From positions 1-64,000 of the forward strand of contig CALJAK010000007.1 of the NCBI GenBank assembly GCA_938027595.1: DNA of 64,000 bases, written 5' to 3'. Shown here piece after piece: positions 38,821 through 46,143 of this stretch. The notes beneath the pieces were generated by a model, which made no database searches, had not been told where the DNA came from, and saw only the letters and a list, made by a program, of their open reading frames with translations. Positions within the stretch are counted from its first letter, which is position 1; every line of letters begins with the position of its first letter. The translations under genes and the position numbers were made by a program. Source of the stretch: an uncultured Thermoproteales archaeon. Its GTDB lineage: Archaea > Thermoproteota > Thermoprotei > Thermoproteales > Thermoproteaceae.

Positions 38821-39591
38821 GTGATCGTAGTCGCCGGGAACCCAACCATAGACGTCGTGTATACACACGACGGTGTACGCGAAAAGTTCGGCGGGTCTGT
38901 ATACTACGCCTCACTGGCACTCAGCGCGTTTGGAGCTAAGGCAAAAGTAATCGGCGTGGCTTCGGCTGACGTCGCAGCGGAGTTACGGCAGCTCTTTAGA
39001 AAGCTCGGCGTGGATGTTCACCTAATCGAAGCCGACGTCACCACTACATTTGAGTTAGACTATAGAAAAAAGCCTAGAGTGGCGAAGCTGCTGAAGAGGC
39101 CTTCTGTGACGATTGGAGAAGTGACTGGCGACGTCGTAATTCTCTCGCCGGTGTACGACGAGTTGAGAAATGCTTCAGTCACGGCTAGAGTGACGGTGGC
39201 GGATTTGCAGGGTTATCTCCGCGCTGGATTACCCACGCCGATTGTGGACTTGGTGCACTTCTCTCAAGACGACATATCTCTAACGCTTAGAGAGCTAGTG
39301 GATTTCGCCTCTAGATGGCCGGTGGCTGTTTACACTCTGGGCGAGGGGGGCGCTTATGTGGTTAGGGGGAGGAGAGTTTTTCACATCAACAGCGCTAGGG
39401 TGGACGTAGAAGACGTCACTGGCAGTGGCGATGTGTTTATAGCGTCTCTCACATATCTACACTATATAGAAGGTAGAGAACTTCTCGAGGCAGTTTGCGA
39501 AGCCAGTAGATACGTAGCTGGGTTTTTAGCTAGCGGAAGAGTATCGAAATATCACTTTGAGTGCACTACACGAGTTGTTCTAGAGAAGTAA
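38821..39591 (+). CDS. PfkB-family sugar/nucleoside kinase
   Basis: 256 residues. FGGSVYYASLALSAFGAKAKV near the start (sugar-binding Gly-Gly) and the ATP/anion-hole motif D-V-T-G-S-G-D-V-F at about 197-205 with catalytic Asp. VAVYTLGEGGAYVVRGRR is the family's preceding segment. It is shorter than ribokinase, and the substrate (sugar, nucleoside or cofactor) is not clear. GTG start with a TATA-like GCTATATATATC upstream (about 38792-38803). Its end overlaps the convergent CBS gene by 26 bases. Confidence 0.85.
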   Translation: MIVVAGNPTIDVVYTHDGVREKFGGSVYYASLALSAFGAKAKVIGVASADVAAELRQLFRKLGVDVHLIEADVTTTFELDYRKKPRVAKLLKRPSVTIGEVTGDVVILSPVYDELRNASVTARVTVADLQGYLRAGLPTPIVDLVHFSQDDISLTLRELVDFASRWPVAVYTLGEGGAYVVRGRRVFHINSARVDVEDVTGSGDVFIASLTYLHYIEGRELLEAVCEASRYVAGFLASGRVSKYHFECTTRVVLEK

Positions 39592-40426
39592 TTTTGGTGA
39601 GTACATCTGTCCTAGTGACTATGCCAACTAACCGATTTTCCGAATCCACCACGAGTACTCTGCCTATCCCACTCGACACCATGATGTTGACTACTTCGTG
39701 AATGTCCTCGTCTTCGTGTACTGTCGGCGGATTTGGAAACATTATGTCTCTCACTTTTACAGAAGTGTTACATGTAGAAATCGCTTCTATCAGCTTAGAT
39801 GCCATGAGGATGCCTATTGGCCTATCTGTTTCGTTCACCACAGGCAGCCCCCTGTATCTCTTTTCAATAAAGAACTTTATGTACGTCTCTATGGAGTGGT
39901 CCGGCTTAGCCACGACGGGGTTTGGCGTCATTATGTTCTTTACATAGACTCTGGGGATGGAGATTAGAGAGTTTATCTCTACAAGTGACTCCGTATCTGC
40001 CCTAATGATTTTCCCGATGAGCACTACGCCGCTGGGGAGTGGACCGATTTTTACCTCTTTTTCTAGGTATGGCGTCAAGTCGCCAATTACTCTTATGGAG
40101 GCGTAGGGCTTTTTCGAGAGGAGGCCGATGAGGGTGATGTCCAGTGCGTAACCCACCACATTGCCCATGGCCACTATGGGCACTGAAAACATTTGCCGCG
40201 TTAACACATCGTTGGCTTTAGAAGTGGGTATGTAACCCCCGTGGGGACCCGCTTTGCTAATCACAAACCCCATAGATTTCAATATTGACAACATGTTCCG
40301 CACGTATCCCTCGTGTATTCCCAACGTGTTGGCGATATCTCGAGATTTAACGGGGGCACCCTCTCTGTTGTATAACTTCACTAAAGCCTCTAGTACGTTA
40401 TAGACAGAATCAGATATGTTTGCCAT
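39566..40426 (-). CDS. HTH-plus-CBS-pair regulator
   Basis: 286 residues from ATG 40426 (an extension to 40483 is rejected since the AT-rich promoter lies between). An N-terminal winged helix (VYNVLEALVKLYN, then RDIANTLGIHEGYVRNMLSI) is followed by an Rrf2-like wing and a middle domain (100-170), then two CBS repeats (IMTPNPVVAKPDHSIETYI, RDIMFPNPPTVHEDEDI). CBS pairs sense adenosine nucleotides. It is divergent from serA, and an inverted repeat and an sRNA candidate lie in the gap; it is a candidate local regulator of serine genes. Confidence 0.8.
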   Translation of the reverse strand: MANISDSVYNVLEALVKLYNREGAPVKSRDIANTLGIHEGYVRNMLSILKSMGFVISKAGPHGGYIPTSKANDVLTRQMFSVPIVAMGNVVGYALDITLIGLLSKKPYASIRVIGDLTPYLEKEVKIGPLPSGVVLIGKIIRADTESLVEINSLISIPRVYVKNIMTPNPVVAKPDHSIETYIKFFIEKRYRGLPVVNETDRPIGILMASKLIEAISTCNTSVKVRDIMFPNPPTVHEDEDIHEVVNIMVSSGIGRVLVVDSENRLVGIVTRTDVLTKITSLEQLV

Positions 40427-40460
40427 TGTGTGTGCATATTTCTTGAATAAAAATTTTCTC

Positions 40461-40509
40461 TCAGAGATCGGTCTCTTGCTCACCTATCGCTAGACCGTTT
40501 TATCATCAC
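40461..40509 (-). ncRNA. C/D box sRNA candidate between the HTH-CBS and serA genes
   Basis: Minus strand: GTGATGA (C, perfect), 12 bases, GCGA (D'-like), TAG, GTGAGCA (C'-like), 12 bases, CTGA (D). Both guides can pair with one part of 23S rRNA (from memory of the conserved sequence): the D guide (complement of 40465-40476) with AGGUCGGUCUCU including one G-U pair, and the D' guide (complement of 40491-40502) with UAGACCGU just upstream of it. It lies upstream of the HTH-CBS start (40426) in the same direction. Neither target is proven. Confidence 0.65.
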
Positions 40510-40517
40510 ATGATAAA
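40499..40517. promoter_or_regulatory. 8-bp inverted repeat upstream of serA
   Basis: TTTATCAT-CAC-ATGATAAA is a perfect inverted repeat with a 3-base centre. It sits just before the serA TATA-like ACATTTTTAAAG (about 40518-40529) in the gap shared with the HTH-CBS gene. This is operator-like; it also overlaps the C box of the sRNA candidate, so the two explanations compete. Confidence 0.5.
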
Positions 40518-40547
40518 CATTTTTAAAGCAATTTAATCCTATCGCTA

Positions 40548-41471
40548 ATGTTTGCGCTTATAATTGATCCAGTGGATTCGACGTTTGTCGACAAGTTGAA
40601 AAGTCTGGGTGTGACTGTAGAGACTGCAGTTGGCATCTCGAGAGAAGAGTTGATCAAGATAATAGGTAGGTATGACATCTTAGTTTTTAGAGGTAGATTA
40701 AAAATCGACAAGGAGGTCATCGACGCCGGCGTAGGTCTGAAGATCTTGGCTAGGTATGGAGTTGGGTTAGATAACGTAAATGTAGAATATGCAGTGAAGC
40801 GGGGGATAACTGTAGTGAGTGCCCCCCGCGCTCCCACACAGAGTGTCGCAGAGTTAGCCATAGGGCTGATGTTATCTGTGGCGCGTCGCATACCTCAACT
40901 AACGGTCGGCGTTAAGTCGGGAGGATGGCCCAAGGGGAAGTATCTCGGGATGGAGCTCTTTGGAAAGACTCTGGGGATAGTTGGGTTTGGGAGAATTGGA
41001 AAGTCTGTGGCTCACATTGCCAAATGTATGGGTATGAACGTCGTGGCTGCAGACGTCATAGACGTAAGTAGCGAAGTGGAGAGACTTGGCGGTGCACAAG
41101 TCAGCCTTGGCGAGTTGTTGAAAAACAGCGACGTGATTTCTATACACGTTTCGCTAACTCCAGAGACGTACAAACTTCTAAACGGAGACAACTTGCGGTT
41201 GGTGAAAGACGGCGCGATTATCGTGAATACTAGCAGAGGCGAAGTCATAGACCACGACGCGCTCTTGGAGCACATTGACAGATTGTGGGGAGTCGGCTTA
41301 GACGTGTTGCCAGAAGAGCCGCCCAAAAATCCAAAACTAATGCAGTTGATATCACATGAAAAAGTAGTAGTGACTCCACACATAGGTTCTGAAACTGGCG
41401 AAGCCATGAGGAGGTTGGCGGAGGAGTTGGCTCTCAACATTGAAGAAGTCATTTCGAGAACTAAGTCATGA
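40548..41471 (+). CDS. serA: D-3-phosphoglycerate dehydrogenase (ACT-less)
   Basis: 307 residues, so no ACT regulatory domain. NAD loop G-F-G-R-I-G at about 146-151, SRGEVIDHDAL near 230, and EEPPKNPKLMQLISHEKVVVTPHIGSE with the catalytic His. LARYGVGLDNVNVEYAVKRGI is the family substrate-side motif. It makes 3-phosphohydroxypyruvate, the first step of phosphorylated serine synthesis; other 2-hydroxyacid substrates remain possible. It overlaps the aminotransferase gene by ATGA. Confidence 0.88.
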   Translation: MFALIIDPVDSTFVDKLKSLGVTVETAVGISREELIKIIGRYDILVFRGRLKIDKEVIDAGVGLKILARYGVGLDNVNVEYAVKRGITVVSAPRAPTQSVAELAIGLMLSVARRIPQLTVGVKSGGWPKGKYLGMELFGKTLGIVGFGRIGKSVAHIAKCMGMNVVAADVIDVSSEVERLGGAQVSLGELLKNSDVISIHVSLTPETYKLLNGDNLRLVKDGAIIVNTSRGEVIDHDALLEHIDRLWGVGLDVLPEEPPKNPKLMQLISHEKVVVTPHIGSETGEAMRRLAEELALNIEEVISRTKS

Positions 41472-42481
41472 AGTACCTCACGCCCGGCCCAGTGCAGTTG
41501 CCGCCTTTTGTGTTGGAAGCTATGGCGAGACAACCGCCATTTCACCGAAGTGAGGCGTTTAGGCAGTTATTCAAATCTGTGTTAGATAAACTTACAAAGG
41601 TTTACCCAACGCGGGCTATAATTATGCCAGGCACTGGGACGTTGGCAGTGGACACAATGATATACAATTACGTCGATCCGGGAGAGAAGGTGTTGGCGTT
41701 GGTATACGGCGAGTTTGGAAAGAGAGCTGTCGAAAGCGCAAAAACGAGGGGGGCAGTTGTGGTGGAGATAGAGAGAGACATTCCCCCAGCTCCAGATGAA
41801 GTAGACGACATGTTGAGGAAAGACGGCGAGATAAAAACCGTGTTGTTAATACACAACGAAACTAGCACCGGCATTGCATATAAAGACGTGAAGAAATTAA
41901 TTGACGTCGTCAAGTCGCACGGGGCTCAATTACTCGTGGACAGCGTCTCTGGCTTCCCAGCAGAGCCGCTGCCCCCCGGCGTAGATGTGGTGGCTACCGC
42001 TTCTCACAAAGCGTTTTTAGCCCCACCGGGCGCTTCGCTTCTTTTTATTTCGTCTACACCGAAGACGTCTGCGCCTGTGCCGCCAGTCATGGACTTGAGG
42101 AAGTACATCAAGACATTGGAGCATTTAGAAACTCCATACACCCCACCGATTTCTGTAATATTTGCGCTCGACGTCTCGCTCAATTACATAATAGAGATGG
42201 CCGAGCAATATGTGGAGATGCACAGAGAGAGAGTTGAATATCTATATCGACATGTAAAACTCCAACCAATTCCACCCCCGCAGATACGTAGCTCCACAGT
42301 CACTGCGTTTATTTGCGAAAAACCCAGAGAAGTCATCAAAAGACTTAAGGAAGTTGGATACGTGATTGCTGGTGGGATGTATAAGTACAGAGAGAGATCT
42401 ATAAGAATTGGCGTAATGGGCGACGTAACTTTTGATGACTTGAAGAGAGTATCTGAAGTGATAAATGACGTGGTTGAATAG
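41468..42481 (+). CDS. Class V aminotransferase (serine/phosphoserine or alanine-glyoxylate type)
   Basis: 337 residues. MKYLTPGPVQLPPFVLEAM is the start of the AGAT/SPT family; IIMPGTGTLAVDTMIYN, IHNETSTGI and the PLP-lysine segment T-A-S-H-K-A-F (Lys 181) follow. By operon context it could be the phosphoserine aminotransferase step. It overlaps serA by ATGA, and the DUF89 gene starts 17 bases before its end, an unusually tight three-gene unit. Confidence 0.88.
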   Translation: MKYLTPGPVQLPPFVLEAMARQPPFHRSEAFRQLFKSVLDKLTKVYPTRAIIMPGTGTLAVDTMIYNYVDPGEKVLALVYGEFGKRAVESAKTRGAVVVEIERDIPPAPDEVDDMLRKDGEIKTVLLIHNETSTGIAYKDVKKLIDVVKSHGAQLLVDSVSGFPAEPLPPGVDVVATASHKAFLAPPGASLLFISSTPKTSAPVPPVMDLRKYIKTLEHLETPYTPPISVIFALDVSLNYIIEMAEQYVEMHRERVEYLYRHVKLQPIPPPQIRSSTVTAFICEKPREVIKRLKEVGYVIAGGMYKYRERSIRIGVMGDVTFDDLKRVSEVINDVVE

Positions 42482-43268
42482 ATTTGATTGTAAACTTTGT
42501 ATAATCTTTTCAAGAACTGGCGATTTAAACAGACTTAACAAACCCGAGAAGATATCTGACATTTTGAGAGAATTATCCATCTTAGTGGAGGAGTCGAGTA
42601 GAAGCGTGGCTTTTTCTCGGAGTTTTTCTATTGTAGCTAAACTCGTGGGTTCAACCGATCCATATAGAGAATACAAGAAAAAACTGACGGAAATCGGGAA
42701 AAAAGTGGCAGAAACAGTCAAACGGAGGTTAGAGAATTCGTCATGGGATTTGGGGAGTGCGTTGAGAATAGCGGCAGCTGCCAACATTGTAGACACAAGC
42801 GTGTTGGGCTACAGACCGAAGAAACTTGAAGAAGCTGTTTGGGATTTGCCTGCCATAGAGGAGCATGTGGATTTACCTAGCAATGTGTACTATGTGTTAG
42901 ACAACGCTGGCGAGGCTCAGATCGATTTAGTAGTTGCCGAGAGCTTAGAGAGAAACGGCATAAAGCCAACGTTTGTAGTTAGGTCAGAGCCGTATGAAAT
43001 AGACGTGTTAGAAGAGGATTTATCCAGCTACAGAGTTGTGTCCACGCCGGGAAATGTGTCTCCAGTAAGGTGGATAAGCGATGGATTTATAATTGCCAAG
43101 GGGATCGCCAACTTTGAGGCTTATATCGAGTGGGGGCGAGTTCCATCGTTGCATTTGTTTAGAGCTAAATGCGACGTTTTGGCTAGAGCGTTTTCAACAC
43201 CGCGTAATGCGCCTATAGTAATCAGTGGCGAGAAAGCTAAACGTATCGTTATGTCACAATCAACTTAA
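42465..43268 (+). CDS. DUF89/ARMT1-like damage-control metal phosphatase
   Basis: 267 residues. DUF89 signatures: C-K-L-C at about 9-12, G-S-T-D-P-Y-R-E-Y-K near 62-71, and V-L-D-N-A-G-E at about 144-150 with the metal-binding Asp/Asn, plus LVVAESLERNGIKPTFVVRSEP. Known members are metal-dependent phosphatases acting on sugar phosphates and related damaged metabolites. Being the third gene with serA and an aminotransferase, it could be a phosphoserine phosphatase replacement (inference). Its start lies inside the aminotransferase gene, and its end overlaps the convergent coiled-coil gene. Confidence 0.82.
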   Translation: MTWLNRFDCKLCIIFSRTGDLNRLNKPEKISDILRELSILVEESSRSVAFSRSFSIVAKLVGSTDPYREYKKKLTEIGKKVAETVKRRLENSSWDLGSALRIAAAANIVDTSVLGYRPKKLEEAVWDLPAIEEHVDLPSNVYYVLDNAGEAQIDLVVAESLERNGIKPTFVVRSEPYEIDVLEEDLSSYRVVSTPGNVSPVRWISDGFIIAKGIANFEAYIEWGRVPSLHLFRAKCDVLARAFSTPRNAPIVISGEKAKRIVMSQST

Positions 43269-44957: not shown

Positions 44958-45511
44958 GTAAGAGGAAGTACAAAGAGATCACTATATATAGGTCTCTGCG
45001 GAGTCAACACAGATTTTTTCAACTTCACTTTATCAACCTCCATTGACCCCACTTTAACCGTTTTATTTTGTTGAATAAATTCTCTAAGTCTATCCATATT
45101 ACGACTGGATTTAATTCTACCTATGGTCAAATGTGGCACGAATTCTTCTCTCTCAACTTGAGCTGCGTATTTATCCACCGCTTCTCTAACTACTTTAGCT
45201 AACTTCTCTAACTCTTCAACTCCCTGCGACACGCCAATCCACAAAACGCGAGGTCTCGACAAGTCTGGGAAAACATCCAAACCTTGTAGAAATATTGTAA
45301 ATTTGTTAAATTTCAAATTAGCTAAAGCTCTCATCACGTTGTCTACTCTACTCTCTGGTATTTCTCCAAGAAAGCGGAGAGTAAAGTGTAGATTTTCTTT
45401 CTCTACAAATTTTATGTCTAGACCTAACTTGAGTACTTCTTTCTGGAGTTCTACAACTCTATTCACTACATCCACGCTTTCTACATCTATCGCCACAAAC
45501 GCTCTAATCAT
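44954..45511 (-). CDS. thpR: RNA 2',3'-cyclic phosphodiesterase (LigT/ThpR)
   Basis: 185 residues from ATG 45511. The two catalytic H-x-T-x motifs are HFTL (42-45) and HLTI (127-130), the 2H-phosphoesterase pattern. It opens 2',3'-cyclic phosphates to 2'-phosphate, the end left by the tRNA splicing endonuclease. Given the intron-rich tRNAs of this genome, a role in splicing-end metabolism fits, but archaeal ligation itself uses RtcB. It overlaps its neighbours on both sides. Confidence 0.93.
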   Translation of the reverse strand: MIRAFVAIDVESVDVVNRVVELQKEVLKLGLDIKFVEKENLHFTLRFLGEIPESRVDNVMRALANLKFNKFTIFLQGLDVFPDLSRPRVLWIGVSQGVEELEKLAKVVREAVDKYAAQVEREEFVPHLTIGRIKSSRNMDRLREFIQQNKTVKVGSMEVDKVKLKKSVLTPQRPIYSDLFVLPLT

Positions 45512-45932
45512 ACTTATACAACCACCTAGCAATCAAGTCGCAACTCGACGGTGTAATGAATCCCACACCACATCGGTCGGAGTACGGGCAGTAAGTGCAC
45601 GGTATAGAGATGAGTATTTGTAACTCGTGAGGTAAGTTTTCCATTTCTATAGTAAACGTCTCCACAGAGACTTCTCTAATTTTACTGAGAAGTCTATATC
45701 CCTTCTCGGTAAGCCTAACTGTGTAAACACCTCTCCTGTTACCCCCCACTCTCTCTCTAACTATCACCCCCCTCTTTTCTAACCTCGCCAAGATGGGTAA
45801 GCCAGTCTTGCTATCTATCCCAATGTACTTCCACAAATTCCGTTGTTGATAACTCCCCCCCAATCTCTCTAAGCCCTGCAAAATCTGCATTTCCACTTCA
45901 GTAAGTACATCGGAGCCTTCAGAAAAATCCAC
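45504..45932 (-). CDS. TFE-beta / RPC34-like transcription factor with Fe-S motif
   Basis: 142 residues from GTG 45932, TATA-like TTTATAAATT about 24 bases upstream. An extended winged helix (about 12-60) with QQRNLWKYIGIDSKTGLPIL then ARLEKRGVI matches RPC39/RPC34. A C-terminal Fe-S type ligand set C112, C115, C121, C131 lies in CTYCPYSDRCGVGFITPSSC, followed by DLIARWL. This is the known layout of archaeal TFE-beta, which opens promoters with TFE-alpha. The frame runs on through the tRNA-Ile gene, but that is not used. Co-transcribed with thpR and cca. Confidence 0.85.
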   Translation of the reverse strand: MDFSEGSDVLTEVEMQILQGLERLGGSYQQRNLWKYIGIDSKTGLPILARLEKRGVIVRERVGGNRRGVYTVRLTEKGYRLLSKIREVSVETFTIEMENLPHELQILISIPCTYCPYSDRCGVGFITPSSCDLIARWLYKYD

Positions 45933-45964
45933 ATGTGGCTTTGTTTTACAATTTATAAACTTAA

Positions 45965-46077
45965 TGGTGGGCCCGCCGGGATTCGAACTCCCGGGGTCAG
46001 CCCCACCCGGGACCTCCCGGTTATCAGCCGGGCGCTGCGGTCTGGAGAACCATCTAACCGGGCTAAGCCACGGGCCC
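45965..46077 (-). tRNA. tRNA-Ile(GAU) with a D-arm intron and a T-arm intron
   Basis: Acceptor GGGCCCG/CGGGCCC, encoded A-CCA, anticodon stem CCCGG/CCGGG around CTGATAA (anticodon GAT). A 17-base insertion (46037-46053) splits the D stem between 22 and 23: central helix GGTT/GACC, bulges AG^A and GC^A, hairpin TGG-TTCT-CCA. An 18-base insertion (45988-46005) lies between 53 and 54; removal restores CCGGG-TTCGAAT-CCCGG. Both have the bulge-helix-bulge layout cut by the archaeal splicing endonuclease. TATA-like ATTTATATAAC about 25 bases upstream. Confidence 0.9.
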
Positions 46078-46143
46078 CTCCAACCATCACGTTTAGTTAT
46101 ATAAATTTTGCCCCCACCAGTGTTTGACGACACAAAACCCAAA

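Follow-up and report, generated by a model that had tools for sequence, protein, structure and literature searches.

The DUF89 enzymes known to date prefer sugar phosphates or damaged cofactors, such as fructose-1-phosphate and oxidised 4'-phosphopantetheine (PMC8669784). A first-pass annotation of the locus described here had taken the family to be known only for damage-control phosphatases, which agrees with the literature surveyed (PMC8669784); no DUF89 protein acting in serine synthesis was found in that literature. In T. kodakarensis, phosphoserine is made by SerA together with the aminotransferase TK1548, and in some Desulfurococcales the gene for SerK, a kinase of free serine, clusters with serA and an aminotransferase gene (PMC5120207). 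The first two steps of a phosphorylated route to serine thus have archaeal precedent, and an enzyme working at the phosphoserine/serine node is already known from the slot beside serA and its aminotransferase. In an uncultured, heat-loving Thermoproteales archaeon, a DUF89 gene lies in this slot. Judged from its sequence and its neighbors, the protein is a candidate phosphoserine phosphatase that would close the phosphorylated serine route, an explanation to which we give even chances.

The genome surveyed comprises 1.24 Mb in 24 contigs and is 96.5% complete, and the window, the whole stretch of 64,000 nucleotides that was analysed, corresponds to C7:1-64000. Its nearest relatives carry the name Pyrobaculum, and the window most likely stems from a Pyrobaculum-type MAG. 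Three genes follow one another on the forward strand: a serA-like 3-phosphoglycerate dehydrogenase gene (40548-41471, 307 aa), a class V aminotransferase (AT) gene (41468-42481, 337 aa) and a gene for a DUF89/ARMT1-like metal phosphatase (42465-43268, 267 aa). The open reading frames lie exactly at these positions and bear out the earlier description of a single unit, with a serA/AT overlap of 4 bases and an AT/DUF89 overlap of 17. As the gene downstream of DUF89 is convergent and the gene upstream of serA divergent, the unit consists of just these three genes. A putative TATA-like box, TTTTTAAA (40520-40527, forward strand), lies 21-28 bases upstream of the serA start, a spacing that would fit a leaderless transcript. 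The divergent gene (39566-40483, reverse strand) encodes a helix-turn-helix domain of the HrcA type (Pfam HrcA_DNA-bdg) and two CBS domains, and its true start is probably further inside, at about 40429. In each of the five Thermoproteaceae loci with sufficient flanking sequence (L098-L102) it stands divergent to serA, and its product may regulate the serine unit. Beyond it, a pfkB kinase gene is present in all five loci.

A perfect 8-3-8 palindrome, TTTATCAT-CAC-ATGATAAA (40499-40517), was considered as the operator of this regulator and rejected, being not conserved in L098-L102; the part that is conserved there resembles a C/D box sRNA. Such an sRNA candidate (40458-40512, reverse strand) lies between the divergent regulator and serA, with a C box GTGATGA, inner boxes, a D box CTGA and the guide parts ACGGTC and GAGACCG. 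It is conserved in 6/6 Thermoproteaceae loci and has a weak, sub-threshold C/D match in Rfam. Elsewhere in the window, a tRNA (45968-46077, reverse strand; Rfam 39.5 bits) that is missed by ARAGORN overlaps the open reading frame at 45504-46142, and long inserts in two of its loops suggest introns at unusual places.

The serA product matches 2-Hacid_dh and 2-Hacid_dh_C in a Pfam profile search (2.3e-52) and has the catalytic domain and motifs of a phosphoglycerate dehydrogenase, with R-x-R, GFGRIG, RGEVI, EEPP and TPHIG all present. Its closest solved relatives are the archaeal D-3-phosphoglycerate dehydrogenases 2ekl (4e-77) and 1wwk (2e-66). The best phosphoglycerate dehydrogenase model, TIGR01327, scores 292 bits over the catalytic part against a cut-off of 454; this model describes a longer two-part enzyme whereas the protein here is a short form lacking the regulatory domain, and the shortfall is probably due to the absent C-terminal part. 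The AT product belongs to Aminotran_5 (1.2e-14) and, by its profiles, to the alanine-glyoxylate/2-aminoethylphosphonate kind of class V, with TIGR03301 the best NCBIfam model (143 bits). Its best solved relative is 2dr1, a Pyrococcus 'hypothetical serine aminotransferase' (3.5e-43), and it carries the PLP motifs VDSVS (157) and SHK (179) as well as RIGVMG (313). SerC-type profiles give only 26-29 bits against cut-offs of 253 or more. Phosphoserine aminotransferases belonging to a different class V type exist in archaea, and a role as phosphoserine aminotransferase would be compatible with this low score; we propose that AT is a putative phosphoserine (or serine:pyruvate-type) aminotransferase.

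The DUF89 product is a member of the ARMT1-like domain family PF01937 (2.4e-25, 89.8 bits, cut-off 25) and the only one in its genome by profile search. No HAD family among the Pfam and NCBIfam profiles matches it, and its best NCBIfam model, the damage-control phosphatase equivalog NF040824, reaches 79 bits against a cut-off of 440. The start of the protein is robust, since relatives begin at the same W-L/C-x-x-C point. Its metal ligands are D146, N147 and D180, and these residues, together with K212, G213, N216 and E218 of the KGxxNxE motif, are invariant in 72 DUF89 sequences. The AlphaFold2 model has a mean pLDDT of 95.4, and its 19 best Foldseek matches are all DUF89-family structures, led by 2g8l (PH1575; 1.6e-13) and followed by AF1104, At2g17340 and yeast Duf89. 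A yeast Duf89 structure with covalently bound BeF3 (per PDB titles) is among these nearest folds, which suggests an aspartyl-phosphate route. The whole metal site and the fold are retained in sequence and model, and metal-dependent phosphatase activity is predicted. Residues Y177-E178 are invariant in the operon-linked set, as are C9, C12 and K235-C236. The Tyr-Glu pair before the metal aspartate occurs in 38/38 linked and in 31/34 unlinked DUF89s, the other 3 differing, in a set that includes three bacterial outgroup proteins. Because unlinked Thermoproteota DUF89s have it too, this signature is not operon-specific. Speculatively, E178, two residues ahead of D180, could contact the serine amino group.

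From these features we infer the in vivo direction of the unit, the substrate of AT and, above all, that of the DUF89 protein. The three genes would be co-expressed for the phosphorylated route: SerA would oxidise 3-phosphoglycerate to 3-phosphohydroxypyruvate, AT would convert the latter to O-phospho-L-serine and the DUF89 protein, using a metal held by D146, N147 and D180, would remove the phosphate to yield serine. That the pathway runs through phosphoserine is likely, and the DUF89 protein probably, if somewhat less surely, acts on an intermediate of the serA-AT pathway; whether that intermediate is O-phosphoserine is an evenly balanced question.

The first-pass annotation had asked whether the triplet is conserved in Thermoproteales, and its conservation in fact reaches well beyond them. 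Every one of the 15 Pyrobaculum/Thermoproteus relatives that gave a match has the order serA-AT-DUF89, and the only Thermoproteus that gave none is a genome 76% complete. A scan of GTDB contigs shows the trio in Pyrobaculum and Thermoproteus and also in Ignisphaera, Acidilobaceae, Caldisphaera, Desulfurococcales and Sulfolobales/Sulfolobaceae MAGs; across these loci it is complete at L097-L103, L106-L110, L113 and L114, and seen as AT-DUF89 with serA undetected at L105, L111, L112 and L115. Flanking genes vary by family; the three genes themselves remain together, and their stop and start codons often overlap. By eye, AbrB-PhoU-like genes lie near the trio at L103:7027, L106:2682, L107:5571 and L111:3611, all outside Thermoproteaceae. 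Among 397 Thermoproteota genomes at least 90% complete, surveyed with thresholds of at least 368 bits for a close DUF89 and at least 395 bits for a close AT, AT lies directly upstream in 24 of the 25 genomes with a close DUF89. Conversely, all 31 genomes with a close AT have a DUF89 somewhere, directly behind AT in 24 and elsewhere in 7 (five of the Caldivirga type, two of f11); these counts come from related genomes and are non-independent. Caldivirga (g5) and g7 have DUF89 elsewhere and retain serA-AT. In favor of the proposed role, g3 (G043 and G044, the latter of the same family and 91% complete) has neither AT nor DUF89, and G417, 94% complete and from a genus with the trio, is without close AT and close DUF89. 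At L161, L162 and L164 the DUF89 slot is taken by divergent members of the family (34-37% identity), and at L132 the order is DUF89-serA-AT. Against the proposed role, one Desulfurococcaceae genome (G323, L104/L155), which holds a strong PSP-like HAD, has a close DUF89 from the operon clade with no serA-AT beside it. When 61 DUF89s are placed in a tree, 27/28 members of one clade (support 99/94) are linked, with the remaining linked DUF89s outside it; parsimony gives five changes of linkage, at least two of them forced by well-supported branches and their exact number left unsure by long branches, and 0/500 shuffles are as low.

It follows from this conservation over several families with different flanks that the trio is beyond chance, and from its recurrence in distant archaea that it probably serves one pathway. 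We regard serA-AT-DUF89 as almost certainly a selected functional unit. A small compact genome might be taken to favor a neutral neighborhood of functionally unlinked genes, which in view of the changing flanks and of more than one origin of the trio is scarcely credible.

The reading that most directly competes for the last step assigns it to a HAD protein. The genome has six PF00702 matches, of which three are small proteins matched by PF12710 as well. All are found either on contigs other than that of the window or farther along C7, at 135 kb and 245 kb, so that the window holds no HAD phosphatase, as the first-pass annotation had observed. A dedicated SerB in the genome, which that annotation had named as a refutation, is neither found nor clearly absent: the SerB model (TIGR00338, cut-off 144) is unreached by the three small HADs tested and PF00300, the histidine phosphatase family, has no match in the genome at 0.001, but a HAD-IB 'phosphoserine phosphatase-like' (PSP-like) protein is encoded at C7:245324-245863. 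This gene adjoins one resembling an AbrB-PhoU regulator, an arrangement also seen, by eye, for the PSP-like HAD in Pyrobaculum. Were the HAD-IB protein the phosphoserine phosphatase, DUF89 might be a house-cleaner within the operon that clears an incorrect or damaged phosphate ester arising from SerA or AT. A TIGR01491-like HAD is present in all 14 surveyed Thermoproteaceae genomes with the trio, the best PDB match of the protein is the M. jannaschii phosphoserine phosphatase, and characterised DUF89s do dispose of fructose-1-phosphate or of oxidised phosphopantetheine (PMC8669784). Against this, the protein scores 74 bits of the required 152 with TIGR01491 and, as the best of the HADs, 47 of 144 with the SerB model, and the M. 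jannaschii alignment covers the core only (69-199). The SerB signature has a glutamate nine residues after the nucleophile, an acid that is missing from the first motif of the HAD, DVDGVITPFRSAW. Nor is there an obvious need for a cleaning enzyme to remain joined to serA-AT across families. The HAD is moreover absent from five genomes with the trio and from Caldivirga and g7, where serA-AT is retained. Taken together, we consider this reading unlikely, and in its own genome DUF89 is one of two phosphoserine phosphatase candidates.

A general replacement of SerB by DUF89 was rejected, as there is no overall pattern of replacement: PSP-like HADs (1e-12) coexist with the close trio in 21/24 surveyed genomes, being absent in G225, G285 and G299, and those of Acidilobaceae exceed the family cut-off. 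Among genomes with a divergent trio, the PSP-like HAD is absent in G168 and G181 and present in G234. In the five genomes G168, G181, G225, G285 and G299, all with the trio and 93-99% complete, neither a PSP-like HAD (1e-12) nor a PF00300 protein is found, which makes DUF89 the best candidate there; the HADs inspected in these five are of sugar-phosphatase or phosphoglycolate types, except for a weak HAD-IB in G168 (serB 23 bits, cut-off 144). Histidine phosphatases of Acidilobaceae were also considered as phosphoserine phosphatases and set aside, resembling phosphoglycerate mutase by eye; those of Caldivirga are of a different type. Three Caldivirga-type genomes (G002, G004 and G013; L200-L202) keep serA-AT without a PSP-like HAD; their strong PF00300 protein could be another phosphoserine phosphatase candidate.

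Two further readings keep the unit together and alter its chemistry. DUF89 might act one step earlier, dephosphorylating 3-phosphohydroxypyruvate so that a serine:pyruvate-type AT converts hydroxypyruvate to serine; AT is indeed nearer to alanine/serine-glyoxylate and serine-pyruvate enzymes (3kgw, 6pk1, 3zrp) than to SerC. This is improbable given that a phosphoglycerate dehydrogenase usually goes with a phosphorylated route and that T. kodakarensis, the kinship of TK1548 to the present AT left aside, forms phosphoserine by way of SerA and that enzyme (PMC5120207). A little more doubtful still is a unit that mainly supplies O-phosphoserine for cysteine synthesis, with DUF89 trimming its level or acting on an unrelated metabolite: an archaeal route from 3-phosphoglycerate through phosphoserine to cysteine exists (PMC5120207), yet by eye no cysteine gene is seen within the unit and its neighbors vary.

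If DUF89 does act as phosphoserine phosphatase, hyperthermophilic archaea without a recognisable SerB would have an enzyme for the final reaction that yields serine, the family would gain a biosynthetic job and many genomes would become annotatable. More broadly, and with chances we put slightly short of even, the Thermoproteota DUF89 clade with the Tyr-Glu-x-Asp metal motif may represent a further class of phosphoserine phosphatase that evolved independently, and the first DUF89 enzymes to serve biosynthesis instead of damage control.

Within PF01937, the protein shares its fold, the D-N...D site and the KGxxNxE-type motif with PH1575, AF1104, yeast Ymr027w, human ARMT1 and the PANK4 phosphatase domain. 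It differs from these relatives in a shorter middle region, in its operon with serA and an aminotransferase, and at the metal aspartate, where it has PYE(I/V)D rather than PII(N/S)D (PIIND in PH1575 and PIISD in AF1104). Compared with SerB and the archaeal TIGR01491 PSP-like HADs, the proposed reaction would be the same while fold and active site are unrelated. A precedent for a non-SerB enzyme comes from the histidine phosphatase family, whose phosphoserine phosphatase of the Hydrogenobacter type is metal-independent; the DUF89 family is likewise unrelated to it. A parallel in gene arrangement is that of the SerK-serA-aminotransferase clusters of Desulfurococcales, which are alike in placing a third gene at phosphoserine/serine; there it encodes a kinase that turns serine into phosphoserine (PMC5120207), whereas in the trio it encodes a member of a phosphatase family.
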